A DNA stretch of 64,000 bases. Source: Falsirhodobacter halotolerans (lineage in GTDB: Bacteria; Pseudomonadota; Alphaproteobacteria; Rhodobacterales; Rhodobacteraceae). Below, piece by piece: positions 8,407 to 20,474 of the stretch (its first letter is position 1; each line of letters opens with the position of its first letter). A model generated the notes under the pieces. The model did no database searches and was not told the origin of the DNA. It saw nothing but the letters and a program-made list of their open reading frames with translations. The position numbers and the translations under genes are program-made. Location of the stretch: contig NZ_JALJAZ010000001.1 of the NCBI RefSeq assembly GCF_022899245.1, positions 476,501-540,500 of the forward strand, in the 5' to 3' direction.

Positions 8407-9225
8407 ATGCTGGAAGTCAGAAACGTCACGCGGATGTTTGGCGCGCGCGCGGCGGTGGACGATATCAGCTTCACCGTCGACGGGCCGGCCTTTGTCGGCG
8501 TGATCGGGCGGTCGGGGGCGGGCAAGTCCACCTTCCTGCGGATGATGAACCGCCTGACCGACGCGACCGCGGGCCGGATCCTGGTGGAGGGGCGCGACAT
8601 CCTCGCCCTGCGCGGCCCGCAGGCGCGGGCGTGGCAAAGCGATTGTGCGATGATCTTCCAGCAGTTCAACCTTGTCCCCCGCATGGATGTGGTGTCGAAC
8701 GTCCTGCATGGCATCCTGAACCGCCGCTCCACCCTTCAGACGATGTTCAACCTGTGGCCGCGCGCGGACATCCTGCGGGCGATCGACATTCTGGACCGGC
8801 TGGGCATCGCCGAACAGGCACCCAAACGGGCCGAGGCGCTGTCGGGCGGGCAGCAGCAGCGCGTGGCCATTGCCCGCGCCCTGATGCAGGATCCCCGCAT
8901 CATCCTGGCCGACGAACCCATCGCCAGCCTTGATCCGATGAACGCGCAGGTGGTGATGGACGCCCTTCGGCGCATCAACCTGGAGGATGGCCGCATGGTC
9001 ATCGCCAACCTGCACACGCTGGACACCGCGCGGCGGTATTGCGACCGCGTCATCGGTATGCGCGACGGGCGCATCGTGTTCGACGGCACGCCCGACCAGC
9101 TTTCGACCGGGGTCGCCCGCGACATCTATGGCGCGGATGCCAGCTTCAACGAGGCGGCGACCTCCACCTCCATTCCCACCGACACCTCATCCGACGACGC
9201 CTATGCCTTGCGGATGATGGCCTGA
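8407..9225 (+). CDS. phnC: Phosphonate ABC transporter, ATP-binding protein
   Basis: PhnC powers import of phosphonates with PhnD and the PhnE permeases. The 272-residue ATPase has Walker [10 protein letters not shown] at residues 34-42, the ABC signature [15 protein letters not shown] from about 145, and Walker B IILADEP around 166. The [12 protein letters not shown] segment near the C-terminus is common in PhnC proteins. It opens the transporter operon, 90 bases after the peptidase gene, so it probably has its own promoter. Confidence 0.95.
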
Positions 9226-9250
9226 CCCCTTCCATCCCTACGGAGAGACG

Positions 9251-10153
9251 ATGAAACACGCAGTTCTGGCCCTGATGGCCGCCACCGCCCTGTCCCCCCT
9301 CGCCGCCACGGCGCAGGAGATCACGCAGTTCAACATCGGCATTCTGGGCGGCGAGAACGCGCAGGACCGCATGAATTCCAACGAATGCTACCGCGTGGCC
9401 ATCGAAGAGGCGCTGGGCGTGCCGGTCAAGATCTTCACGCCCGCCGACTATGACGGCGTGATCCAGGGGCTGCTGGGCGGCACGCTGGACATGGCGTGGA
9501 TGGGGGCGTCGGGCTATGCCAAGATCTATCTGACGAACCCCGATGCGGTGACGCCGGTCCTGACCAAGCAGAACATGGACGGTTCCACCGGCTATTACGC
9601 CGTGGCCTTCGCCCGCGCCGACAGCGGCATCACCTCGATCGAGGATGCCAAGGGCACGTCCTTCGTCTTCGCCGATCCGAACTCCACCTCCGGCTATCTG
9701 GTGCCGGCGGCGGAACTGACCCAGACCTATGGCCCCTTGGACGACTACTTCTCCGAAGTGCGGTTTTCGGGCGGGCATGAACAGTCGATCGTCGCCGTGG
9801 CCGGTGGGGACGCCGATGCGGGCGTCAGCTGGGCCGACGGTCTGGGCGACTGGGAAGACGGCTACAACTCGGGCGCGTTCCGTCGCGCGGCCGATGCCGG
9901 GCTGGTCGACATGAACGACATCGTGCCGATCTGGCAGTCCAGGCTGATCCCCGAAGGTCCGATGGTGCTGCGCAACGCCCTGCCGCAGGGGGTGCGCGAC
10001 ACGGTGACCCAACTGACCGCCGACCTTCACGAAACCGACCGCGCCTGCGCCTATGGCGTGGCGGCGGGCGAGGCGCAGGATTTCGTCCCGGTCGATCATG
10101 CCGCCTATGACGGGATCGTCGCCGCGCGCGAGTTGGAACAGGCGAACCGCTGA
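9251..10153 (+). CDS. phnD: Phosphonate ABC transporter, periplasmic substrate-binding protein
   Basis: PhnD captures phosphonates in the periplasm. The 300-residue protein starts with a Sec signal peptide (MKHAVLALMAATALSPLAATAQ; likely cleavage after ATA or TAQ). The mature part has the PhnD pattern: FNIGILGGENAQDR, a conserved NECY segment, LGGTLDMAWMGASGYAK, FVFADPNSTSGYLVP and the second-domain EVRFSGGHEQSI. These loops bind the phosphonate group in the E. coli protein. A GGAGAG ribosome binding site precedes the ATG. Confidence 0.95.
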   Translation: MKHAVLALMAATALSPLAATAQEITQFNIGILGGENAQDRMNSNECYRVAIEEALGVPVKIFTPADYDGVIQGLLGGTLDMAWMGASGYAKIYLTNPDAVTPVLTKQNMDGSTGYYAVAFARADSGITSIEDAKGTSFVFADPNSTSGYLVPAAELTQTYGPLDDYFSEVRFSGGHEQSIVAVAGGDADAGVSWADGLGDWEDGYNSGAFRRAADAGLVDMNDIVPIWQSRLIPEGPMVLRNALPQGVRDTVTQLTADLHETDRACAYGVAAGEAQDFVPVDHAAYDGIVAARELEQANR

Positions 10154-10218
10154 TCCCACCCCGATGGACCGCCCCGACCCCGGGGCGGTCCCTTGTCCAT
10201 TCCGACCGTGAGGGGTTC

Positions 10219-11085
10219 ATGGCCGACACCGCGCCTTCCCATCCCGCGCCCGACATCCGCGGCGCCTATCTCGACATGGTGCGCCGCCGCCGGATGTATG
10301 GCGGCATCCTTCTGGTGTTCTTCGCGGCCCTGATGGTGTCGGGCTTCGATCTTGCCCAGTCGCGCAACGCGGGCGGGTTCCTGCCCGGCCTGCCCATGGT
10401 CTTCTCCTTCCCGTCCGAGGTCCTGTCCGAGGCGTGGCGCGAGCGGGCGGCCATTCCGGCCATGCTTCTGGGCCATCTGCCGTCCTTGATCGAGACGGTG
10501 AACATCGCCGCCGTCTCCACCCTGCTGGGCGGGCTGGCGGCGATGGGGCTGGCGCTTTTGTCCACGCACGGGCTGGCGCGCTGGCCCCGGCTGACGCCGG
10601 TGTTCCGCCGCATGATGGACACCACGCGCGCCATACCGGAGGTCGTGATCGCGCTGATGCTGATCTACATCCTGGGCGGCGGGCCGGTTCCGGCGGTGGC
10701 GGCCATCGCGCTGCACACGGCCGGCGCCTTGGGCAAGCTGTTTTCCGAAGTGGCCCAGAATGCCGACTTGAAACCGGTGGAGGGCCTGACCTCGGTCGGG
10801 GCCAACTGGGGGCAGCGGATGTGGCTGGGCGTCCTGCCGCAGGTCGCGCCGAACTGGACGTCCTATGCCCTGATGCGGTTCGAGATCAACGTGCGGGCCA
10901 GCGCGATCCTGGGCTTCGTCGGCTCGGGCGGGATCGGGTATGACCTGAAGATCGCGATGCAATGGGGGCAGGGGCGCTATGCCGAGGTGGTGGCGATCTT
11001 CCTGCTGCTGTTCCTGACCATCGTCGCGATCGACCGCCTGTCCGATCACGCCCGCGTCCGTTTGGTGAAGGGAGCCCTGCAATGA
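10219..11085 (+). CDS. phnE: Phosphonate ABC transporter permease 1
   Basis: The 288-residue inner-membrane permease forms half of the transport channel. It has a short cytoplasmic N-terminus, a first helix around residues 28-45 (GGILLVFFAALMVSGFDL), and the usual permease core with the coupling-loop sequence GALGKLFSEVAQNAD followed by PVEGLTSVGANWGQR. The conserved GFVGSGGIGYDL lies near the C-terminus. It is followed with a 4-base overlap by a second, longer permease gene, as in rhizobial phn clusters. Confidence 0.93.
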   Translation: MADTAPSHPAPDIRGAYLDMVRRRRMYGGILLVFFAALMVSGFDLAQSRNAGGFLPGLPMVFSFPSEVLSEAWRERAAIPAMLLGHLPSLIETVNIAAVSTLLGGLAAMGLALLSTHGLARWPRLTPVFRRMMDTTRAIPEVVIALMLIYILGGGPVPAVAAIALHTAGALGKLFSEVAQNADLKPVEGLTSVGANWGQRMWLGVLPQVAPNWTSYALMRFEINVRASAILGFVGSGGIGYDLKIAMQWGQGRYAEVVAIFLLLFLTIVAIDRLSDHARVRLVKGALQ

Positions 11086-12395
11086 CCGCCGCAATCATGG
11101 CCCCGCCGATCCTGCGCGGGTTCGCCCGTCGCCGCCTGACCGCCTTTGCCGTGCCGCTGGCGATCCTGGCCTATCTTCTCTATGCCGCGATCACCTTCGA
11201 CGTGGCGGGCCTTGCGGCCCGTGCGCGGATGGACAATGCCGCGCTGATGCTGTCGGATTTCTGGCAGCACAAGACGCATATCACCCGCGACAACCGCACC
11301 GGCGCCCTGACCGCCGCGGTGGAGGGGGAGAACAAGGGCCTCTATCCCGAAGGCCGTCTGCCCGATTATGTCACCGTGAACGGGTCCGTCACCACCATCG
11401 ATCTGGAGCGGGGCCATGTCGTCACCTATGACGCGGCGGGGGCGCGGTATCTGCATCCCGACCATGGCACCATCGACATCCGCCCCGAGGGCAACCGCCT
11501 GATCCTGACCGCGCCGCAGCCCTTGCCCGACTGGATCAACGCTTCGGACAGCCGCGTCAGCCTGACGACCGGGGCGGGCCGCTTCGCCTATACCCGATCC
11601 AAGGTGGAGACCTTCCGCTATTCCCCCGGCTGGCCGCTGTTCTTCTTCACGCTCGACAGCCCTTGGGCGTTCATGACCTGGGGGGAGATCGGCGCCGCCG
11701 CGCTGTGGGGCGAGCGGTTGGATCCGGCGCGATCCAACATCGCAAGCATGGCGCAGGATTTCTGGACCAACGCGATGTGGCGGCATGGCGACGTGTTCTG
11801 GGCGATCATGGAAACCATCCTGATGGCCTTTCTGGGCACGATGGGGGCGGCGATCCTGTCCCTGCCGCTGGCCTTCATGGCGGCGCGCAACATGAATCCG
11901 CTGGGGCCGGTGCGCTTCGGGCTGCGGCGGGTGTTCGATTTCATCCGCGGGGTGGACGCGCTGATCTGGACCATCGTTCTGGCCCGCGCCTTCGGCCCCG
12001 GCCCGATGACCGGCGCGCTGGCCATCCTGCTGACCGACACCGGCAGCTTCGGCAAGCTATTCTCCGAGGTGCTGGAAAACATCGACGAAAAGCAGGTGGA
12101 GGGCGTGCGGTCCACCGGCGCGGGGGCTGTGGCGCGGGCCCGGTTCGGGGTGATCCCGCAGGTGACGCCGGTGCTGCTGTCGCAGGTGCTGTATTTCCTT
12201 GAGGCCAACACCCGCGGGGCCACGGTGATCGGGGCCATCGTCGGCGGGGGGATCGGCCTGTTGTTGACGCAGGCGATCCAGACGCAGAAGGATTGGGAGG
12301 ATGTGGCCTATTACATGGTGCTGATCGTGCTGACCATCATCGCGATGGACAGCCTGTCGGGCTGGCTGCGCCGCAAGCTGATCCGGGGGCACTGA
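11082..12395 (+). CDS. phnE: Phosphonate ABC transporter permease 2 with large periplasmic insert
   Basis: This 437-residue permease is about 150 residues longer than PhnE1. The first helix (about residues 18-36) is followed by an extra hydrophilic region, roughly 40-205, before the permease core. The core repeats the PhnE signature GSFGKLFSEVLENID, then QVEGVRSTGAG, and ends with ATVIGAIVGGGIGLLL. The insert should lie in the periplasm and could contact PhnD. The ATG overlaps the phnE1 stop, and its own stop overlaps the next start. Confidence 0.9.
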   Translation: MTAAIMAPPILRGFARRRLTAFAVPLAILAYLLYAAITFDVAGLAARARMDNAALMLSDFWQHKTHITRDNRTGALTAAVEGENKGLYPEGRLPDYVTVNGSVTTIDLERGHVVTYDAAGARYLHPDHGTIDIRPEGNRLILTAPQPLPDWINASDSRVSLTTGAGRFAYTRSKVETFRYSPGWPLFFFTLDSPWAFMTWGEIGAAALWGERLDPARSNIASMAQDFWTNAMWRHGDVFWAIMETILMAFLGTMGAAILSLPLAFMAARNMNPLGPVRFGLRRVFDFIRGVDALIWTIVLARAFGPGPMTGALAILLTDTGSFGKLFSEVLENIDEKQVEGVRSTGAGAVARARFGVIPQVTPVLLSQVLYFLEANTRGATVIGAIVGGGIGLLLTQAIQTQKDWEDVAYYMVLIVLTIIAMDSLSGWLRRKLIRGH

Positions 12396-13012
12396 TGCCG
12401 AAACTTTCTGCCGACGTGCCGCTGATCCATCCGGGCGCGGTGGTGACCGCCTCCACCCTCGGGCGGTTCTGCGAGGTGGGGGAGGGCGCGCGCCTGCTTG
12501 CCACCGATCTGGGCGACTATGCCTATTGCGAACGGTTGTGCGACATCGCCAACGCGTCGGTGGGCAAATTCGCCAACATCGCCGCCCTGTGCCGCATCGG
12601 GCCGACCGATCACCCGATGCACACGGCCAGCCTGCATCACTTCCTGTATCGCGCCAGCTACTACTGGGACGACGCCGAGGATGACGCCGAGTTCTTCGCC
12701 GCCCGTGCGGCGCGGCGGACGGTGATCGGGCCGGACACCTGGCTGGGCCACGGCGCGATCGTGAAGCCGGACGTGACCATCGGCGCGGGGGCCATCGTCG
12801 CCTCGGGTGCGGTGGTGACGAAGGACGTGGCCCCCTACATGATCGTGGCGGGGGTGCCGGCGGTGCCGCTGCGCGCGCGGTTCACGGCCGATGTGGCCGA
12901 CCGCCTTTTGGCGCTGGCGTGGTGGGATTGGGATCACGCCCGCCTGCGCCGCGCCCTGACCGACTTCCGCAGCCTGCCGGCCGAGGCGTTTCTGGAGATG
13001 TATGGCGGTTAG
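12395..13012 (+). CDS. Hexapeptide-repeat acyltransferase of the phosphonate cluster
   Basis: The 205-residue protein is a left-handed beta-helix (hexapeptide repeat) transferase of the DapH/GlmU-like group often found in phn operons. The C-terminal half shows GAIVKPDVTIGAGAIVASG repeats, and HPMHTASLHHFLYRAS is typical of this phosphonate-associated subfamily. The acceptor is unknown; acetylation of an aminophosphonate would be an analogy with PhnO, not something shown here. The start overlaps the phnE2 stop (TGATG) and its 3' end overlaps phnF by 4 bases. Confidence 0.85.
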   Translation: MPKLSADVPLIHPGAVVTASTLGRFCEVGEGARLLATDLGDYAYCERLCDIANASVGKFANIAALCRIGPTDHPMHTASLHHFLYRASYYWDDAEDDAEFFAARAARRTVIGPDTWLGHGAIVKPDVTIGAGAIVASGAVVTKDVAPYMIVAGVPAVPLRARFTADVADRLLALAWWDWDHARLRRALTDFRSLPAEAFLEMYGG

Positions 13013-13719
13013 TCGGCGTTCACCGTCAGCGTCACGCGGTCGCCCGCGAACCAGGTCGTGCCGTATTCGACGGGGTGGCCGTCCGCATCCAGATTGATCG
13101 CCACCGTGCGCAGAACCGGCGCGCCCTGCGGCACCTCCAGCGCAAGGGCCATCGTGGCCGGGGCGATCTTGGCCGTCAGGCGGGTTTCGGCGCGGGTGTA
13201 ATCGGCCACCCCGCAGGCCGCAAGCGCCCGGGTGACGGAGGTGTCGGCGCGCAGGTGGTCGGCAAGGGTCGGAAACCGCGTGGCGTCGAACACCGACCGG
13301 AACACCGCCAGGGGCTGCCCATCGGCCAGCGACACCCCTTCCATCACATGCACGGGCGCGCCGGGGGGCAGGCGCAGGGCCGCCGCCTCTTCCGCGTCGC
13401 AGGCGCGGATGTCCAGCCGGGTCAGCCGCCGAGACGCCGTCCGCCCCGAGGCGGCCAAGTTCTGATGAAAGCGCACCCGTCGCCCCAGGGGATATTCGGT
13501 CGGGGTGGCCGTGACGAACACCCCCGCCCCTTGCCGCGTGCGCAGCGTCCCGGCGGCGACCAGCGACTTCACCGCGTGCCGCACCGTGTGGCGGTTGACG
13601 CCGAACCGGGTCGCAAGCTCCCCCTCGGTCGGCAGGCGGTCGCCGGGGCGGTAATGGCCGTCCGTGATGTCCGTCTGTAACGTGGCGGCGATGGAGGTCC
13701 AGATCGGTTTGCGTGTCAT
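13009..13719 (-). CDS. phnF: GntR/HutC-type phosphonate regulator
   Basis: PhnF is the local transcriptional repressor of phosphonate genes. The 236-residue protein has an N-terminal GntR winged helix (about residues 8-75, including LATRFGVNRHTVRHAVKSL) and a C-terminal UTRA effector-binding domain that senses a ligand. It is transcribed divergently from phnG, and the 102-base region between them holds HutC-like half sites and an inverted repeat (13768-13799). This position suggests control of both phnF itself and the phnG-M chain. Confidence 0.92.
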   Translation of the reverse strand: MTRKPIWTSIAATLQTDITDGHYRPGDRLPTEGELATRFGVNRHTVRHAVKSLVAAGTLRTRQGAGVFVTATPTEYPLGRRVRFHQNLAASGRTASRRLTRLDIRACDAEEAAALRLPPGAPVHVMEGVSLADGQPLAVFRSVFDATRFPTLADHLRADTSVTRALAACGVADYTRAETRLTAKIAPATMALALEVPQGAPVLRTVAINLDADGHPVEYGTTWFAGDRVTLTVNAD

Positions 13720-13767
13720 TGAATGTTCACAACTCGGCGCTTGAGCCGAATCCTCCTTCGCGCTATC

Positions 13768-13799
13768 ACTTGTCTAGTTGTATAGGAATCTGGACAAGT
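13768..13799. promoter_or_regulatory. Candidate PhnF operator
   Basis: Perfect 7-base inverted arms ACTTGTC (13768-13774) and GACAAGT (13793-13799) flank an 18-base centre. Two half sites, GTCTAG (13772-13777) and GTATAG (13780-13785), match the first six bases of the GTMTAKAC consensus known for HutC-type GntR regulators. The site ends 22 bases before the phnG ATG, a fitting place for repression. Confidence 0.5.
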
Positions 13800-13821
13800 C
13801 AGCAAGATGTCGAGGTGGAGC

Positions 13822-14256
13822 ATGGCACACGGGAACGAGATGCGAGCCAGTTGGATGGCCGTGCTGGCCAAGGCCCCCTCCGGGCGGTTGGCCGCGCTGA
13901 TGCCGGACCTGCCCGCCCATGATATCCTGCGCGCGCCGGAAATCGGGGCGATCATGGTCGAAGGGCGCATCGGCGGCACCGGCGCGCGGTTCAATCTGGG
14001 CGAGATGACCGTTACGCGCTGTTCGGTCCGGCTGGACGGGGCCGAGGGCCATGCCTGCATTCAGGGGCGCGACAAGGACCACGCCCGCCGGGCCGCGGTT
14101 CTGGACGCGCTGATGCAGGGGGGCGCTGCGGCGCGGATCCGGGCGGAGGTTCTGGATCCCTTGACCGGGGCCGCCACCGCCACCCGCCGCGCCCGCGCCG
14201 AAAAGGCCGCCGCAACCAAGGTGGAGTTCTTCACGATGATGCGGGGGGAGGATTGA
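13822..14256 (+). CDS. phnG: C–P lyase core subunit PhnG
   Basis: PhnG is part of the PhnGHIJ core complex; with PhnI, PhnH and PhnL it attaches phosphonate to the ribose of ATP. The 144-residue protein has family segments RASWMAVLAKAP, MVEGRIGGTGARFNLGEMTV and a C-terminal KVEFFTMMRGE. The ATG at 13822 is preferred over one at 13807 because GGTGGAG sits directly upstream at normal spacing. It is the first gene of the main phn chain and its stop overlaps phnH. Confidence 0.93.
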   Translation: MAHGNEMRASWMAVLAKAPSGRLAALMPDLPAHDILRAPEIGAIMVEGRIGGTGARFNLGEMTVTRCSVRLDGAEGHACIQGRDKDHARRAAVLDALMQGGAAARIRAEVLDPLTGAATATRRARAEKAAATKVEFFTMMRGED

Positions 14257-14822
14257 TGACCGCGCACACCCTGTCCGGCGGGTTCGCCGATCCCGCCCGC
14301 CAATCCGCCCACGCCTTTCGCGCGGTGATGGAGGCGATGGCCCGCCCCGGCACGTTGCACGACCTGACGGGGGCCGTCGCGCCGGGCCTGTCGGTGGCGG
14401 CGGCGACCGTGATCTTGACCCTGACCGACGGCACGACGCCCCTGCATCTGGCAGGGGCTGCGGACACCGAGGCGCTGCGCCGCTGGGTCGCGTTCCACAC
14501 CGGTGCGCCGCTGGTGGGGGCCGAGCAGGCGGCCTTTGCCGTCGGGCGCTGGGCGGATCTTCTGCCGGTGGACCGGTTTTCCGTGGGCGTCCCCGCCTAT
14601 CCCGACCGGTCGGCCACGCTGATCGTGGAGGTGCCGACCCTTTCGGCCATGGGGCCTCGCCTGACCGGGCCGGGGATCGCAACGGCGGCCACTCTGGCCC
14701 TGCCCGACATCGCCGCGTTTCAGGCCAACCGGGCGCTGTTCCCGCTGGGCTTCGACACGATCCTGACCTGCGGCGCGCGGCTGGCCGCCCTGACGCGCAG
14801 CACGAATGTGGAGGCCGTCTGA
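14256..14822 (+). CDS. phnH: C–P lyase core subunit PhnH
   Basis: PhnH is a PLP-transferase-fold protein without PLP that completes the core complex. The 188 residues include the opening GGFADPARQSAHAFRAVMEAMARPG, which is diagnostic, and a C-terminal FPLGFDTILTCG segment. The ATG at 14256 overlaps the phnG stop; a TTG three bases upstream is a weaker alternative. The stop overlaps the phnI start. Confidence 0.94.
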   Translation: MTAHTLSGGFADPARQSAHAFRAVMEAMARPGTLHDLTGAVAPGLSVAAATVILTLTDGTTPLHLAGAADTEALRRWVAFHTGAPLVGAEQAAFAVGRWADLLPVDRFSVGVPAYPDRSATLIVEVPTLSAMGPRLTGPGIATAATLALPDIAAFQANRALFPLGFDTILTCGARLAALTRSTNVEAV

Positions 14823-15907
14823 TGTATGTTGCCGTGAAAGGGGGCGAACGCGCGATCGACGCCGCCCACGCCTGGCTGGCCGAGGAACGTCGCGGCGACC
14901 GGGCGGTGGCCGACCTGACCGTCCCGCAGATCCGCGAACAGTTGGCGCTGGCGGTGGATCGGGTGATGGCCGAAGGCTCGCTCTATGATCCCGATCTGGC
15001 GGCGCTGGCGATCAAGCAGGCGCGGGGGGATCTGATCGAGGCGGTCTTCCTTATCCGCGCCTATCGCACCACCCTGCCGCGTTTCGGATCGTCCCGCCCG
15101 GTGGACACCGCCGCGATGGCGGTGGACCGGCGCGTGTCGGCCACGTTCAAGGATCTGCCCGGCGGGCAGGTTCTGGGCCCGACCTTCGATTACACCCACC
15201 GCCTGCTGGATTTCGCCCTGATGGCCGAAGGGGAGGCTCCCACCGCCGCCCCGACCGCGCCGCCCCGCGACGAACCCGTCCCCCATGTCATGGGCCTTCT
15301 GGACCGCGACGGCCTGATCGAGGCGGAGGCGCCGGACGACGCGCCGCCCACCGACCTGACCCGCACCCCGCTGGACCTGCCCGCCGACCGCGCGGTGCGG
15401 TTGCAGGCGTTGACGCGGGGGGATGAGGGGTTCGTCCTCTCGCTCGCCTATTCCACGCAGCGGGGATACGGGCGCACCCACGCCTTCGTGGGCGAATTGC
15501 GAATCGGGCGCGTGGCGGTCTGCGTCGATCTGCCCGAACTGGGCTTCGCGGTGGAGGTGGGCGAGATCGAACTGACCGAATGCGAGACGGTGAACCAGTT
15601 CAAGGGATCCAGGACCGAGCCGCCGCAATTCACCCGCGGCTATGGCCTCGTAATGGGGCAAAGCGAACGAAAGGCCATTTCCATGAGCTTGGTGGACCGC
15701 GCCCTGCGCTGGCAGGATCTGGGCGAGGATTTCGTCGGCGCGCCGGCGCAGGATCCTGAATTCGTCCTGTCCCATTGCGACAACATTCAGGCGACGGGGT
15801 TTCTGGAACATATCAAGCTGCCCCATTACGTCGATTTTCAGGCGGAACTGGAACTCGTCCGCCGGTTGCGCGCCGAGGCCATGGCGGGGCAGGAGGCTGC
15901 GGAATGA
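14822..15907 (+). CDS. phnI: C–P lyase core subunit PhnI
   Basis: PhnI acts as a nucleosidase that, with the other core proteins, exchanges adenine of ATP for methylphosphonate to form ribose 1-phosphonate 5-triphosphate. The 361-residue length is normal. Typical segments are MYVAVKGGERAIDAAHAWL at the N-terminus, DYTHRLLDFALMAEGE, GYGRTHAFVGELRIG and GYGLVMGQSERKAISMSLVDRAL. It is coupled to phnH by an overlapping stop and start, and to the HAD gene by ATGA. Confidence 0.95.
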   Translation: MYVAVKGGERAIDAAHAWLAEERRGDRAVADLTVPQIREQLALAVDRVMAEGSLYDPDLAALAIKQARGDLIEAVFLIRAYRTTLPRFGSSRPVDTAAMAVDRRVSATFKDLPGGQVLGPTFDYTHRLLDFALMAEGEAPTAAPTAPPRDEPVPHVMGLLDRDGLIEAEAPDDAPPTDLTRTPLDLPADRAVRLQALTRGDEGFVLSLAYSTQRGYGRTHAFVGELRIGRVAVCVDLPELGFAVEVGEIELTECETVNQFKGSRTEPPQFTRGYGLVMGQSERKAISMSLVDRALRWQDLGEDFVGAPAQDPEFVLSHCDNIQATGFLEHIKLPHYVDFQAELELVRRLRAEAMAGQEAAE

Positions 15908-16482
15908 ACATTGTTTTCGACATCGGCAACGTGCTGATCCGGTGGGATGCGGCGCTGGCCTTTCCGGATCACGACGCCGAGGCGTTTCTGGCCCGCATCG
16001 ATTTCCCCGCCCTGAACCTGCGCGGCGACGGGGGGGAGAGCTTTGCCGATCTGGCGCAAGAGATCGCGGACCCGGACGACCGTGCGCTGTTCCTGACCTA
16101 TCTGGCCAATTACGCCCGCACCATCGCCCAACCGATCGAGGGGACATGGGCGCTGATGGACCGCCTGCGGGCCCGCGGTCATGCGATCCACGCCATCACC
16201 AACTGGTCGGCAGAGACATGGCCGACGGGCGTCGCCACCCATCCGCGCCTTGCCACCAGCTTTGCCACCACCATCGTGTCGGGAGAGGAGGGGGTGGTCA
16301 AACCCGCCCCCGCGATCTTCGCCGCGTTATGCGCGCGCGCGGGCGTGGCCCCCGACACCTGCGTCTTCATCGACGACAGCGCGGCCAATGCGGCCGGGGC
16401 GCGCGCCTTCGGGATGGACGCCATCCATTTCACCACGCCCGAGGCGTTGGAAGCCGCGCTGATCGAAAGGGGTTTGCTGTGA
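15904..16482 (+). CDS. HAD family hydrolase inside the phn operon
   Basis: The 192-residue protein is a HAD phosphatase of the YihX/haloacid dehalogenase-like branch. Motif I is FDIGNVL (nucleophile Asp6, with Gly in place of the usual second Asp, as in YihX-type enzymes), motif II is the ITNWS region, motif III includes the lysine in GVVKPAP, and motif IV is FIDDSAAN. It overlaps phnI by four bases and phnJ by four bases, so it is made together with the C–P lyase core. Its substrate is unknown; a sugar phosphate of the phosphonate pathway is the natural guess. Confidence 0.85.
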   Translation: MNIVFDIGNVLIRWDAALAFPDHDAEAFLARIDFPALNLRGDGGESFADLAQEIADPDDRALFLTYLANYARTIAQPIEGTWALMDRLRARGHAIHAITNWSAETWPTGVATHPRLATSFATTIVSGEEGVVKPAPAIFAALCARAGVAPDTCVFIDDSAANAAGARAFGMDAIHFTTPEALEAALIERGLL

Positions 16483-17318
16483 GCGATTACAACTTCGCCT
16501 ATCTGGACGAACAGACCAAGCGCATGATCCGCCGCGCCCTGCTGAAGGCGCTGGCGATCCCCGGATATCAGGTGCCCTTCGCCAGCCGCGAGATGCCGAT
16601 GCCTTACGGCTGGGGCACGGGCGGGGTGCAGGTGACGGCGGCCTGCCTGACCCCCGACGACCGGTTGAAGGTGATCGACCAGGGCGCGGACGACACGACG
16701 AACGCCGTGTCCATCCGCCGCTTCTTCCAGCGCACGGCGGGCGTGGCCGTGACCGAGGCGACGGCGGATGCCACGGTGATCCAGACCCGCCACCGCATCC
16801 CCGAACGCCCGCTGACCGAAGGGCAGATCCTTGTCTATCAGGTGCCGATCCCCGAACCCCTGCGCTTTCTGGAACCGCGCGAGACCGAGACCCGCAAGAT
16901 GCACGAGCTGGAGGAATACGGCCTGATGCATGTCAAACTCTATGAGGACATCGCCCGGCACGGCGCGATCGCGACCAGCTATGCCTATCCGGTGAAGGTG
17001 GAGGGGCGCTATGTCATGGACCCGTCGCCGATCCCGAAGTTCGACAATCCGAAACTGGGCGGCAATGCGGCGATCCAGCTGTTCGGGGCGGGGCGCGAAA
17101 GCCGCATCTATGCCCTGCCGCCCTATACCGACGTGGTCAGCCTGGATTTCGAGGATCATCCCTTCGTGGCCTCCAAGGCCGATCACGCCTGCGATCTGTG
17201 CGGGGCCACGGACAGCTATCTGGACGAGGTGATCACCGACGATCAGGGCCGCCGGATGTATGTCTGCTCCGACACCGATTTCTGCGGCGGGCGCGTGGCC
17301 CTGCGGGAGGTGGCGTGA
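16479..17318 (+). CDS. phnJ: Alpha-D-ribose 1-methylphosphonate 5-phosphate C–P lyase
   Basis: PhnJ is the radical SAM enzyme that breaks the carbon–phosphorus bond. The 279-residue protein keeps all residues known to matter in E. coli with a constant offset of three: the Fe-S ligands Cys238, Cys241, Cys263 and Cys269, and Gly29, the glycyl-radical position in IPGYQ. The GTG start overlaps the HAD stop and fits that numbering; there is no closer ATG. The stop overlaps the phnK start, so HAD, PhnJ and PhnK are translationally linked. Confidence 0.96.
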   Translation: MSDYNFAYLDEQTKRMIRRALLKALAIPGYQVPFASREMPMPYGWGTGGVQVTAACLTPDDRLKVIDQGADDTTNAVSIRRFFQRTAGVAVTEATADATVIQTRHRIPERPLTEGQILVYQVPIPEPLRFLEPRETETRKMHELEEYGLMHVKLYEDIARHGAIATSYAYPVKVEGRYVMDPSPIPKFDNPKLGGNAAIQLFGAGRESRIYALPPYTDVVSLDFEDHPFVASKADHACDLCGATDSYLDEVITDDQGRRMYVCSDTDFCGGRVALREVA

Positions 17319-18091
17319 TGGACGGTGCGCACATGGCCCGGCCGCTGCTGCGGGTCGAGGGGCTGACCAAACGTTATGGCCCGCGCATCGGCTGCGCGGA
17401 TGTGGGGTTCGATCTGTGGCCGGGCGAGGTTCTGGGCATCGTGGGAGAAAGCGGGTCGGGAAAGTCCACGCTTTTGTCCTGCCTGTCGGGCATGGCGCGC
17501 CCTGATGAGGGACGGATCCTGTGGGACGGGCGCGACGTGCTGACCTTTTCCGAGGCGGAGCGGCGGCGTCTGCTGCGCGGCGACTGGGCCTATGTCCACC
17601 AGAACCCGCGCGACGGGCTGCGGATGGGCGTCAGCGCGGGCGGCAATGTGGGCGAGCGGCTGATGGCCGTGGGCCAGCGCCATTACGGCGACATCCGCGC
17701 CACCGCCACCGACTGGCTGGGCCGGGTGGAGATCGCGGCCGACCGGATGGACGACCGGCCTTCGGCCTTTTCCGGCGGGATGCAGCAACGGTTGCAGATC
17801 GCCCGCAATCTGGTGACCGGCCCGCGTCTGGTGTTCATGGACGAACCCACGGGGGGGCTGGATGTCAGCGTGCAGGCGCGTCTTCTGGACCTGCTGCGCG
17901 GGCTGGTGCGCGACCTGGGCCTGTCGGTGGTGATCGTGACGCACGATCTGGCGGTGGTGCGGCTGCTGGCCGACCGGCTGATGGTGATGAAATCGGGCCG
18001 TGTGGTGGAAACGGGCCTGACCGATCAGGTGCTGGACGATCCGCAGCACGCCTATACCCAACTTCTCGTATCTTCCGTATTGCAGGTGTGA
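17318..18091 (+). CDS. phnK: Phosphonate C–P lyase system ABC-type protein PhnK
   Basis: PhnK resembles an ABC transporter ATPase but binds the C–P lyase core and drives its opening with ATP. The 257-residue protein has Walker [10 protein letters not shown] at 43-51, the signature [14 protein letters not shown], Walker [13 protein letters not shown], and a final switch histidine in VTHDLAVVR. The ATG at 17318 overlaps the phnJ stop; an internal ATG at 17333 is the alternative. The stop overlaps the phnL start. Confidence 0.94.
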
Positions 18092-18777
18092 TGATGATCC
18101 GGATCGAAAACGTCACCAAGACCTTCACCCTGCACAATCAGGGCGGCACCGCGCTGTCGGTGATGGAGGGGGCGCATCTGTCCGTCGCGGCGGGGGAATG
18201 CGTGGGCCTGATCGGGCAGTCCGGGGCGGGGAAATCGACGCTGATGCGGATGATCTACGGCAACTATCTTGCCGCGTCGGGCGTGATCGAGGTGGCGGGG
18301 GTGGACGTGGTCCGCGCCCCCCCGCGCGCGATATTGGCCCTGCGACGCGGGACGCTGGGCTATGTCAGCCAGTTCCTGCGCGTGGTCCCGCGCGTGCCCA
18401 CGCGGGAGGTGGTGGCCGAACCGCTGCTGCGTCTGGGCGTGCCGGCGGATGAGGCAGACGCCCGCGCGGCGGATCTTCTGGCCCGCGTGAACATTCCCGA
18501 ACGTCTGTGGGGCCTGTCGCCCACCACGTTTTCGGGCGGGGAACAGCAGCGGGTGAACATCGCGCGCGGCTTCGCCCACCCCTATCCCGTCCTGCTGTTG
18601 GACGAACCCACCGCCAGTCTGGACGCGACCAACCGCGCGGTCGTGCTCGATCTGATCGACGCCGCCAAGGCGCGGGGGGCAGCCATCGTCGGCATCTTCC
18701 ATGACGAGGCGGCCCGCGCCCGGGTCTGCGACCGGCTGGTCGATGTGACGGGCTTCACGCCGGGGCTTGCGGCATGA
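18091..18777 (+). CDS. phnL: Phosphonate C–P lyase system protein PhnL
   Basis: PhnL is the second ABC-type ATPase of the pathway and is needed for the coupling step on the core complex. The 228-residue protein has Walker [10 protein letters not shown] at 42-50, the signature [14 protein letters not shown], and Walker [13 protein letters not shown] followed by FHDEAAR. Start choice lies among GTG 18088, ATG 18091 and ATG 18094; 18091 overlaps the phnK stop. Its stop overlaps the phnN start (ATGA). Confidence 0.93.
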
Positions 18778-20474
18778 CGCGGCTGGTGGCGGTGGTCGGG
18801 CCCTCCGGGGCGGGCAAGGATCTGCTGATGGCGATGGCCTGCGCCGCCCGCCCCGACCTGCGCTGCGTGCGGCGGGTCATCACCCGTCCTGCCGATGCCG
18901 GGGGGGAGGAGTTCGACGGCGTGACCGAGGCGGAGTTCGCCCGCCGCCGCGATGCGGGCGAGTTCGCGCTGCACTGGCGGGCGCACGGGTTGGGATATGC
19001 CCTGCCGCGGGCGCAGATGGGGGGCGGGGGCGTGGTTCTGTTCAACGCCTCACGCGCCGCGCTGGCCGAGGCGGCGCGGATCTATCCCGATCTGACCGTG
19101 GTGCTGGTGACCGCACCGCCCGACATTCTGGCCGCCCGTCTGGCCCATCGCGGGCGGGAGAGTGCGCAGGACCAGGCCCGCCGTCTGGACCGCGCCGCCT
19201 TCGCCATGCCAGATGCGGTGACCTGGCGGACGGTCGCCAACGACACCACACCGGAGACGGGGCTTGCCCGCTTTCTTGCCGCTCTGCCCGCCCCGCGCCC
19301 CTTATCACCGCCCGCCCGACAGGAGCCTGCCATGACCGAGACGATCCTTGCCAACGCAACGCTGGTGCTGCCGGACGGGGTTGTGCGCGGCAGCCTGCGC
19401 CTGTCGGACGGGCGGATCGCAGACATCGCCGCCGGGGCCTCGGTGCCCGCCGGGGCGCTTGATTGCGATGGCGATCTGATCCTGCCCGGCCTGATCGAAC
19501 TGCACACCGACAATCTGGAGCGCCATCTGCAACCCCGCCCCAAGGTCGCATGGCCGCATCAGGCCGCCATCATGGCGCATGACGCGGAGCTGGCCTCGGT
19601 CGGGATCACCACGGTGTTCGACGCGCTGCGGGTGGGGTCGATCTTTTCCAGTTCCAACGCGGGTTACGGCGAATATGCCCGCGCGCTGGCGACCGAGATC
19701 CTTGCCATGCGCACCGAGGGGGCCTTGCGCATCGACCACCGCCTGCATCTGCGGGCCGAGATCTGTTCGGAAACCCTGATCGAGGAAATGGCCAAGTTCG
19801 GCCCGGACGATGCGGTCGGCATCGTCAGCCTGATGGACCACACGCCCGGCGAGCGTCAGTTCCGCGACATCGGCAAGCTGCGCGATTACGTCATGGGCAA
19901 GCGCGGGATGAACGCGGCGGAATTCGACACGCATGTCGCCAGCCAGCAGGCCCTGCGCGCCCGCGTGGGCGCCGCGCATGAGGCGACCGCCGTGGCCGAG
20001 GCCCGCCGCTATGGCGCGGTGCTGGCCAGCCATGACGACACCACGGCGGCGCAGGTCGCGACCTCGGGCCGCCACGGGGTGCGGTTCGCGGAGTTTCCCA
20101 CGACGCCCGAGGCCGCCCGCGCCTGCCGCGGCGCCGGGATTGCGGTGATGATGGGGGCGCCGAACCTGGTGCGCGGCGGATCGCATTCGGGCAATGTCGC
20201 GGCGCATGATCTGGCCGAGGCGGGTCTTCTGGATATCCTGTCGTCCGACTATATCCCGTCTTCGCTTCTGACGGCGGCGCTGATGCTGGGGGATCTGTGG
20301 GATGACATGCCGCGCGCGGTGGCCACCGTCACCTCGGCCCCCGCCGGGGCGACCGGCCTGACCGATCGCGGGGCGCTGACCGTGGGCCGGCGCGGGGACG
20401 TGATCCGGGTGAAGCGGCTGACCATGTCCAGCGCCGTGCGGGGCGTGTGGGTTCAGGGGCGTCGCGTCGGCTGA
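18774..20474 (+). CDS. phnN-phnM: PhnN–PhnM continuous reading frame (ribose 1,5-bisphosphokinase fused to triphosphate diphosphatase)
   Basis: This 566-codon frame joins two enzymes without a stop. Residues 1 to about 175 are PhnN, the kinase that turns ribose 1,5-bisphosphate into PRPP: P-loop GPSGAGKD at 9-16, [18 protein letters not shown], and a length equal to free PhnN. A proline-rich joint (about 175-186) leads into PhnM, an amidohydrolase that removes pyrophosphate from ribose 1-phosphonate 5-triphosphate: HTDNLERH near the start, [19 protein letters not shown] and [16 protein letters not shown] ribosome binding site and ATG at 19332 at the joint would also permit separate PhnM (380 residues). 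I checked the joint codons by eye and found no stop. Confidence 0.85.
19332..20474 (+). CDS. phnM: PhnM as an internal start product of the fused frame
   Basis: If internal initiation occurs at ATG 19332, a normal 380-residue PhnM is made. Evidence for this start is CAGGAG at 19320-19325 with 6-base spacing, and the fact that PhnM family similarity starts exactly here ([20 protein letters not shown]). Metal ligands His58 and Asp60 lie in ELHTDNLER. This entry nests in the PhnN–PhnM frame and is an alternative or additional product, not a second copy. Confidence 0.6.
   Translation: MTETILANATLVLPDGVVRGSLRLSDGRIADIAAGASVPAGALDCDGDLILPGLIELHTDNLERHLQPRPKVAWPHQAAIMAHDAELASVGITTVFDALRVGSIFSSSNAGYGEYARALATEILAMRTEGALRIDHRLHLRAEICSETLIEEMAKFGPDDAVGIVSLMDHTPGERQFRDIGKLRDYVMGKRGMNAAEFDTHVASQQALRARVGAAHEATAVAEARRYGAVLASHDDTTAAQVATSGRHGVRFAEFPTTPEAARACRGAGIAVMMGAPNLVRGGSHSGNVAAHDLAEAGLLDILSSDYIPSSLLTAALMLGDLWDDMPRAVATVTSAPAGATGLTDRGALTVGRRGDVIRVKRLTMSSAVRGVWVQGRRVG

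Follow-up and report, generated by a model that had tools for sequence, protein, structure and literature searches.

The phn operon of the window (the whole stretch of DNA that was analysed, 64,000 nucleotides) ends in one open frame that encodes PhnN followed by PhnM (Table 1). The DNA holds an in-frame fusion of the two genes, with both halves apparently intact. The ATG of the fused gene overlaps the stop codon of phnL (ATGA), and the frame closes with the TGA at 20472-20474. The first-pass annotation had described PhnN and PhnM as sharing one frame without a stop, 566 residues in length, and a reading-frame check confirmed the frame, its start and its coordinates.

Table 1. Coordinates of the fused gene, its parts and the surrounding phn operon.
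Feature	Position in the window	Strand	Basis or remark
Fused phnN-phnM frame, 566 aa	18774..20474	+	Reading frame and profiles
PhnN part, residues 1-171	18774..19286	+	Alignment to free PhnN proteins; the final 4-10 residues typical of these, with the stop (e.g. QPDRA-stop), are absent
Joint, 15 codons	19287..19331	+	Poor codon score, TTA; 3′ part like the phnM leader of some relatives
CAGGAG, Shine-Dalgarno-like	19320..19325	+	6 nt before ATG 19332
PhnM part, 380 aa	19332..20474	+	ATG at the usual start of free PhnM proteins
phnL	18091..18777 (start 18091 or 18094)	+	Stop overlaps the fusion start (ATGA)
phnK	17318..18091 (start 17318 by TGATG overlap; scanned from 17327)	+	Profile match
phnJ, GTG start	16479..17318 (scanned from 16482)	+	Profile match
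HAD-family hydrolase gene between phnI and phnJ	15904..16482	+	Partial profile matches
phnI	14822..15907	+	Profile match
phnH	14253..14822	+	Profile match
phnG	13807..14256	+	Profile match
phnF, GntR-type regulator	13009..13719	-	Profile match
Hexapeptide transferase of phn operons (TIGR03308)	12386..13012	+	Profile match
phnC, phnD, phnE1 and phnE2 transporter genes	8407..12395	+	Profile matches

The PhnN part matches TIGR02322 at 163.4 bits (cut-off 156) over residues 2-169, while under a second PhnN model, NF007485, it scores 100.8 and does not reach the cut-off of 153. The PhnM part exceeds the cut-offs of both of its models over residues 187-565, with 433.3 bits for TIGR02318 (cut-off 390.55) and 537.6 bits for NF011984 (cut-off 260). 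All 28 near-invariant residues of PhnN are kept, where near-invariant denotes the same residue in at least 97% of 38 other sequences, and so are 146 of 148 in the PhnM half, where one V is replaced by I and one A by G. With a conserved domain in each half, a chance open frame in GC-rich DNA is ruled out and the fused frame is not accidental. Among solved structures found by sequence, the PhnN part matches eight guanylate kinases and the start of PhnM two hydantoinases. The genome, a single assembly of 3 contigs and 3.08 Mb that is rated 100% complete, contains the fusion as its sole full match, and two other matches are short and weak.

Every other phn gene of the operon reads without a stop, and the operon genes match their families over nearly the whole profile, except for phnE2 (from position 26) and the HAD-family gene. 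From phnG to phnN, all seven junctions are stop/start overlaps, and phnN-phnM is the sole fusion. The HAD-family gene shares this arrangement in having overlapping ends, and a similar gene stands at the same place in L047, L048, L050, L057, L060, L072, L073 and L080.

In its gene set, its lack of phnP, its extra phnE2 and its hexapeptide transferase gene, the operon resembles Rhodobacteraceae phn clusters that carry a 2H phosphoesterase (RcsF) and no phnP, such as that of fosmid B3_TF_MPn_2 (PMC3840354). It differs from these clusters in that DUF1045 lies outside the operon and phnN and phnM form one frame. In an isolate, phnM, rcsF and phnNL are placed on one contig by another report (PMC5649143). 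The E. coli operon phnCDEFGHIJKLMNOP encodes the same enzymes, PhnM and PhnN, but as separate genes in the order phnM-phnN and together with PhnP, whereas the window has the order N-M, fused, and no PhnP above the family cut-off. The first-pass annotation placed PhnM before and PhnN after C-P cleavage, and three papers agree (PMC3840354, PMC10574752, PMC9947105).

The joint and the internal start

In the fused frame, the joint scores -0.90 bits per codon, compared with -0.33 and -0.09 in the other two frames. Not one of 335 in-gene segments of 15 codons, taken from 17 family-confirmed gene stretches, is as low (mean 0.63), and 33% of 670 out-of-frame segments score at least the value of the joint. 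The joint has a G+C content of 80%, contains runs of C and carries a TTA codon, which accounts for 2 of 541 leucine codons in the reference genes. In the 15 rows of free PhnN from the set that groups with the PhnM of the window, the protein ends 4-10 residues after position 171, and here 15 other codons follow. The motif ACAGGA occupies the 3′ end of the joint; it is found no more than 30 nt from the phnM start in 7 of the 30 loci that have DUF1045 between the two genes, and, in the PhnM set, before phnM in 6 of 16 rows, the window counted in. Because of its low codon score, the TTA codon and the ACAGGA at its 3′ end, the joint reads like an old phnM leader, which is suggestive of descent from one.

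An open joint alone is unremarkable. The last 36 nt before phnM are free of stops in the phnM frame in 26 of the 30 relatives with DUF1045 between; the rarity here is that the PhnN stop is gone and that PhnN stands in the frame of phnM.

A second proposal of the first-pass annotation, that CAGGAG and an ATG at 19332 could give free PhnM, also finds support. Both elements are present, and the ATG lies in frame 558 nt (186 codons) downstream of the fusion start, so that a plausible internal start, and with it a plausible supply of free PhnM, may be read from the DNA. A bifunctional protein would nevertheless be what ribosomes starting at 18774 most likely make, because both halves keep their near-invariant residues.

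Gene order and fusions in relatives

A gene of family DUF1045 (TIGR03223) often lies antisense between phnN and phnM in relatives, and does so in 30 of the 40 loci of our PhnM tree, which were picked by score and not at random. The gap between phnN and phnM in the family is bimodal in size: 600-1500 bp in 104 of 136 genomes and 224 bp or less in the remaining 32. One of these genomes, G071, has the two genes fused. These 136 genomes have both genes on one contig and strand; the PhnM row was used for 143 genomes, 7 of which were set aside for having no PhnN on that contig and strand, and 27 other positive genomes, with PhnM rows beyond the listing limit, were left out. The adjacent, unfused pairs of G122, G384, G124, G357, G147, G406, G218 and Roseovarius lutimaris are like the window in that DUF1045 is not between the genes, but differ from it in that a stop or an ATGA overlap keeps PhnN and PhnM apart. 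The overlap of the latter kind is seen in R. lutimaris (L052) and G406 (L073).

The first-pass annotation suggested looking for the same fused frame in relatives, and it proved not to be a shared trait. While 171 of 394 family genomes match the fusion at E 1e-150 or better, with the match list reaching down to about 4e-154, among the matches listed a single alignment spans both halves in 7 of the 394 genomes and is free of stops in 2, this genome and G071. The family thus holds at least one other case, which lies on a separate branch. A PhnN search that covered 144 of the remaining 170 positive genomes gave a match in 139, and among these 139 G071 is the only one whose match sits in an open frame exceeding 560 codons (678). 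None of six genomes of other members of the genus has the fusion, and this result, with the family searches, refutes a common family feature. In 385 genomes of the class, no further fusion appeared at E 1e-115, a threshold that would hide distant ones. A literature search, which covered subscription papers only in part, returned no published PhnN-PhnM fusion.

Several candidates were set aside. In plasmid records, 1 of 173 and 1 of 172 cover at least 80% of the query, both being the same record from Qingshengfaniella alkalisoli, and this match has a TGA inside it. Long phnM frames or alignments in G351, G313, G268, G251, G154, G360, G331 and G267 were rejected as fusions because DUF1045 lies between the genes, and these alignments are taken as spurious extensions; G372 was rejected likewise, with DUF1045 again between the genes.

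The fusion of G071, which belongs to another genus of the family, is encoded at L056:8081-9787 and has 569 aa. It passes the cut-offs of TIGR02322, TIGR02318 and NF011984, and its PhnN (...AAHAPAAPALTKAEDR) runs into MHEKVFAN... of PhnM. The two fusions are alike in domain order and in the position of the linker (...AAHAPAAPALTKAEDR-M in G071), but they stand on separate PhnM branches, and the linker of G071 has ordinary codons where that of the window has poor ones: the G071 joint scores 0.14 bits per codon in frame versus -0.84 and -0.86 in the other frames. In the other species examined of the genus of G071, no orthologous PhnM was found, the matches being of 34-38% identity (one species).

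We placed both fusions in a tree of this single gene, PhnM, built from 40 sequences by a quick method with SH-aLRT as the support measure. The PhnM of the window falls under a branch with support 98 that unites 16 rows, of which 14 have DUF1045 between the genes, one has adjacent genes, and one is the window itself; in the 14, the phnN stop and the phnM start are 721-1018 bp apart. The PhnM of G071 lies apart from it, beside the adjacent but unfused G406 and G218 (support 87). One origin for both fusions is rejected by this tree and by an AU test (p = 0.0002), and a second AU test, in which the window was held with five genus members, rejects the operon PhnM as the genus's own lineage (p = 0.0004); the groups for these tests were named after the fusions were known. 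The PhnM of the operon (8407-20474) resembles that of Paracoccus and other genera. Since it is not of the genus lineage and has this resemblance, horizontal replacement of the operon in the window is likely, the other operon genes having been compared with the genus by identity only.

The intergenic region of these relatives often contains a Pho-box-like 11-bp direct repeat. Within the 120 nt before phnM, such a repeat with 0 or 1 mismatch is present in 20 of the 30 loci with DUF1045 between, including 13 of the 14 in the PhnM set of the window; it has no mismatch in L042, L046-L050, L063-L067, L079 and L080 and one mismatch in seven more loci. An example is TGTCAC-N5-TGTGAC, located between the divergent DUF1045 and phnM. 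This suggests that phnM in those relatives has a phosphate-controlled promoter of its own. The best 11-bp repeat of the joint has 4 mismatches, and no perfect repeat of this type occurs in the 64-kb window. Because the joint is without it, phnM here probably relies on transcription from upstream.

The unlinked DUF1045 gene

The genome of the window has a single DUF1045 match, at C1:2520680-2521309, 2.02 Mb from the operon along the contig or, should the contig be a closed circle, 0.55 Mb in the opposite direction. It is flanked by a gene whose match to cardiolipin synthase is weak (below the cut-off) and by a 2′,3′-cyclic-nucleotide phosphodiesterase gene. The match scores 219 bits against a family cut-off of 249, and 11 of 19 genomes searched, this one among them, have no DUF1045 match above the cut-off. 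The protein shares 67-73% identity with five copies from four members of the genus, 53-54% with two others, and 42-54% with those of other genera. Among genus members, G005 (L034, L035) carries DUF1045 twice, once between phnN and phnM and once at another site. Another, at L039 (G006:C1:1358000-1374000), has DUF1045 and phnM with no phnN or phnG-L match in 16 kb, possibly an operon remnant. In G028:C52:1104-1773, DUF1045 is matched in two pieces and is perhaps broken or frameshifted.

All nine adjacent-gene genomes checked, this one included, have exactly one DUF1045 match, located away from phnN-phnM (L033:9992-10660, minus strand, G000:C1:2520680-2521309; L082-L090); the nine come from 33 sampled adjacent-gene genomes (32 plus this one). 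DUF1045 is present in one of 19 genomes that lack a match to the fusion, 8 of which are in the same family. The family member G019, which has no fusion match at E 0.001, carries DUF1045 at C1:404524-405186. The co-occurrence in these genomes is evidence that the unlinked DUF1045 may belong to the C-P lyase pathway.

None of 13 genomes has a PhnP that exceeds the cut-off of 272.25 bits, the best match scoring 69.5. Since all 13 have a weaker PhnP-like match, several of them over the full model, an unlinked PhnP-like enzyme could still be present in these genomes. The same search in controls gave a match in 11 of 14 genomes, above the cut-off in one. A 2H-superfamily protein has been proposed as a stand-in for PhnP (PMC3840354, PMC10574752, PMC8235418, PMC5649143), and in three of these papers it is the position of DUF1045/RcsF within phn operons that connects it with C-P lyase (PMC10574752, PMC8235418, PMC3840354). 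We infer that the RcsF of these papers and DUF1045 (TIGR03223) are one family, and the pattern of unlinked DUF1045 genes fits the published proposal of a PhnP substitute.

Origin and products of the fused gene

The fusion most likely arose when a gene that stands between phnN and phnM in many relatives was lost, a point that the first-pass annotation missed. In the ancestral layout, phnN and phnM would have been read in one direction with DUF1045 reversed between them. A deletion of roughly 0.7-0.8 kb would have removed DUF1045, the last few codons of phnN and its stop, along with the upstream part of the phnM leader and probably phnM's own promoter, in the region of the Pho-box-like repeat. 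By chance, the cut would have left phnN in the frame of phnM, and what remained of the leader, with its Shine-Dalgarno sequence, would have become the proline-rich linker. The predicted products are the 566-residue PhnN-PhnM, most likely with both enzymes active, and some free 380-residue PhnM from 19332. DUF1045 would act from the unlinked gene, at a step that falls after PhnJ and before PhnN and is proposed to open the 1,2-cyclic phosphate. Taken as a whole, deletion of DUF1045 followed by a chance in-frame fusion, with two working enzymes and some free PhnM, is an account that we hold with good though not full confidence. The five genus members in the PhnM tree have another PhnM lineage, and the search returned no close sister with the pre-deletion state, so that loci at a greater distance serve to reconstruct the deletion. 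The fusion itself is real and rare, and the deletion is probably fairly recent.

A broader reading extends to both fusions: the joining of PhnN to PhnM would have occurred at least twice in the family, after the antisense DUF1045 had left its place between them, and the fused protein would be bifunctional and active, coupling the hydrolysis that precedes C-P cleavage with the last, kinase step, with the distant DUF1045 performing the PhnP step. We put this forward tentatively, and regard it as more doubtful than not.

Selection for the fusion itself appears unlikely. Under this explanation, the fusion would be adaptive, either fixing the ratio of PhnM, which acts before C-P cleavage, to PhnN, which acts last, or holding both at the C-P lyase core complex. 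The first-pass annotation suggested both effects, and neither gained support from the analysis. That G071 joins these two genes as well, in this order and on a separate branch, speaks for it, as do the conservation of both halves here and the coding-like joint of G071, which looks older and kept. The joint of the window, however, looks unadapted by its codon score, and the two stop-free cases among the matches listed are few for 394 family genomes. The intermediates of PhnM and PhnN are also not consecutive, with PhnJ and the opener of the cyclic phosphate acting between them (PMC10574752, PMC3840354), and the retained internal Shine-Dalgarno sequence and ATG would loosen any ratio, as the first-pass annotation partly foresaw. 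Chance is moreover sufficient: once the phnN stop is lost, the odds of landing in frame are about one in three, and because phnM leaders are so commonly open over 36 nt, a fusion by chance has fair odds. Since an in-frame cut that removes the phnN stop is reasonably likely by chance, selection need not be invoked.

A one-base sequencing or assembly error is very improbable. In that event, translation of phnN and phnM would in truth be coupled through a 4-nt ATGA overlap, as at the overlapping junctions from phnG to phnN and as in R. lutimaris and G406. Consistent with such an error, the +1 frame of the joint ends at a TGA that overlaps ATG 19332 and scores better than the fused frame (-0.33), and the C-rich joint is one 45-nt stretch from a single assembly. 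However, PhnM begins with MT in 20 of the 30 relatives with DUF1045 between, so ATGA at the phnM start need not mean an overlap. The other phn genes in the window are unbroken, the assembly is complete in few contigs, and an error within these 45 nt is estimated to be much less probable than a genuine in-frame cut, for which the odds are one in three.

Slimmer still is the chance that no stable fusion product exists, through cutting in the proline-rich linker or through synthesis of most PhnM from the internal start, for although the Shine-Dalgarno-like sequence and ATG are retained at 19332 and the region of the start is predicted to fold no more strongly than shuffled sequences do (z -0.11), there is no stop between the halves, so ribosomes from 18774 should continue.

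On the favoured account of a deletion and a chance fusion, the locus looks like a rare rearrangement of known parts and not a new system, because a copy of DUF1045 exists elsewhere in the genome. If the fused protein works, then PhnN tolerates the loss of its C-terminal tail together with a C-terminal extension, and PhnM tolerates an N-terminal one. The fusion is in this sense a natural experiment, and we rate the side result on the unlinked DUF1045 gene as more useful: since DUF1045 persists at a distance from the operon, its proposed replacement of PhnP can be tested directly.
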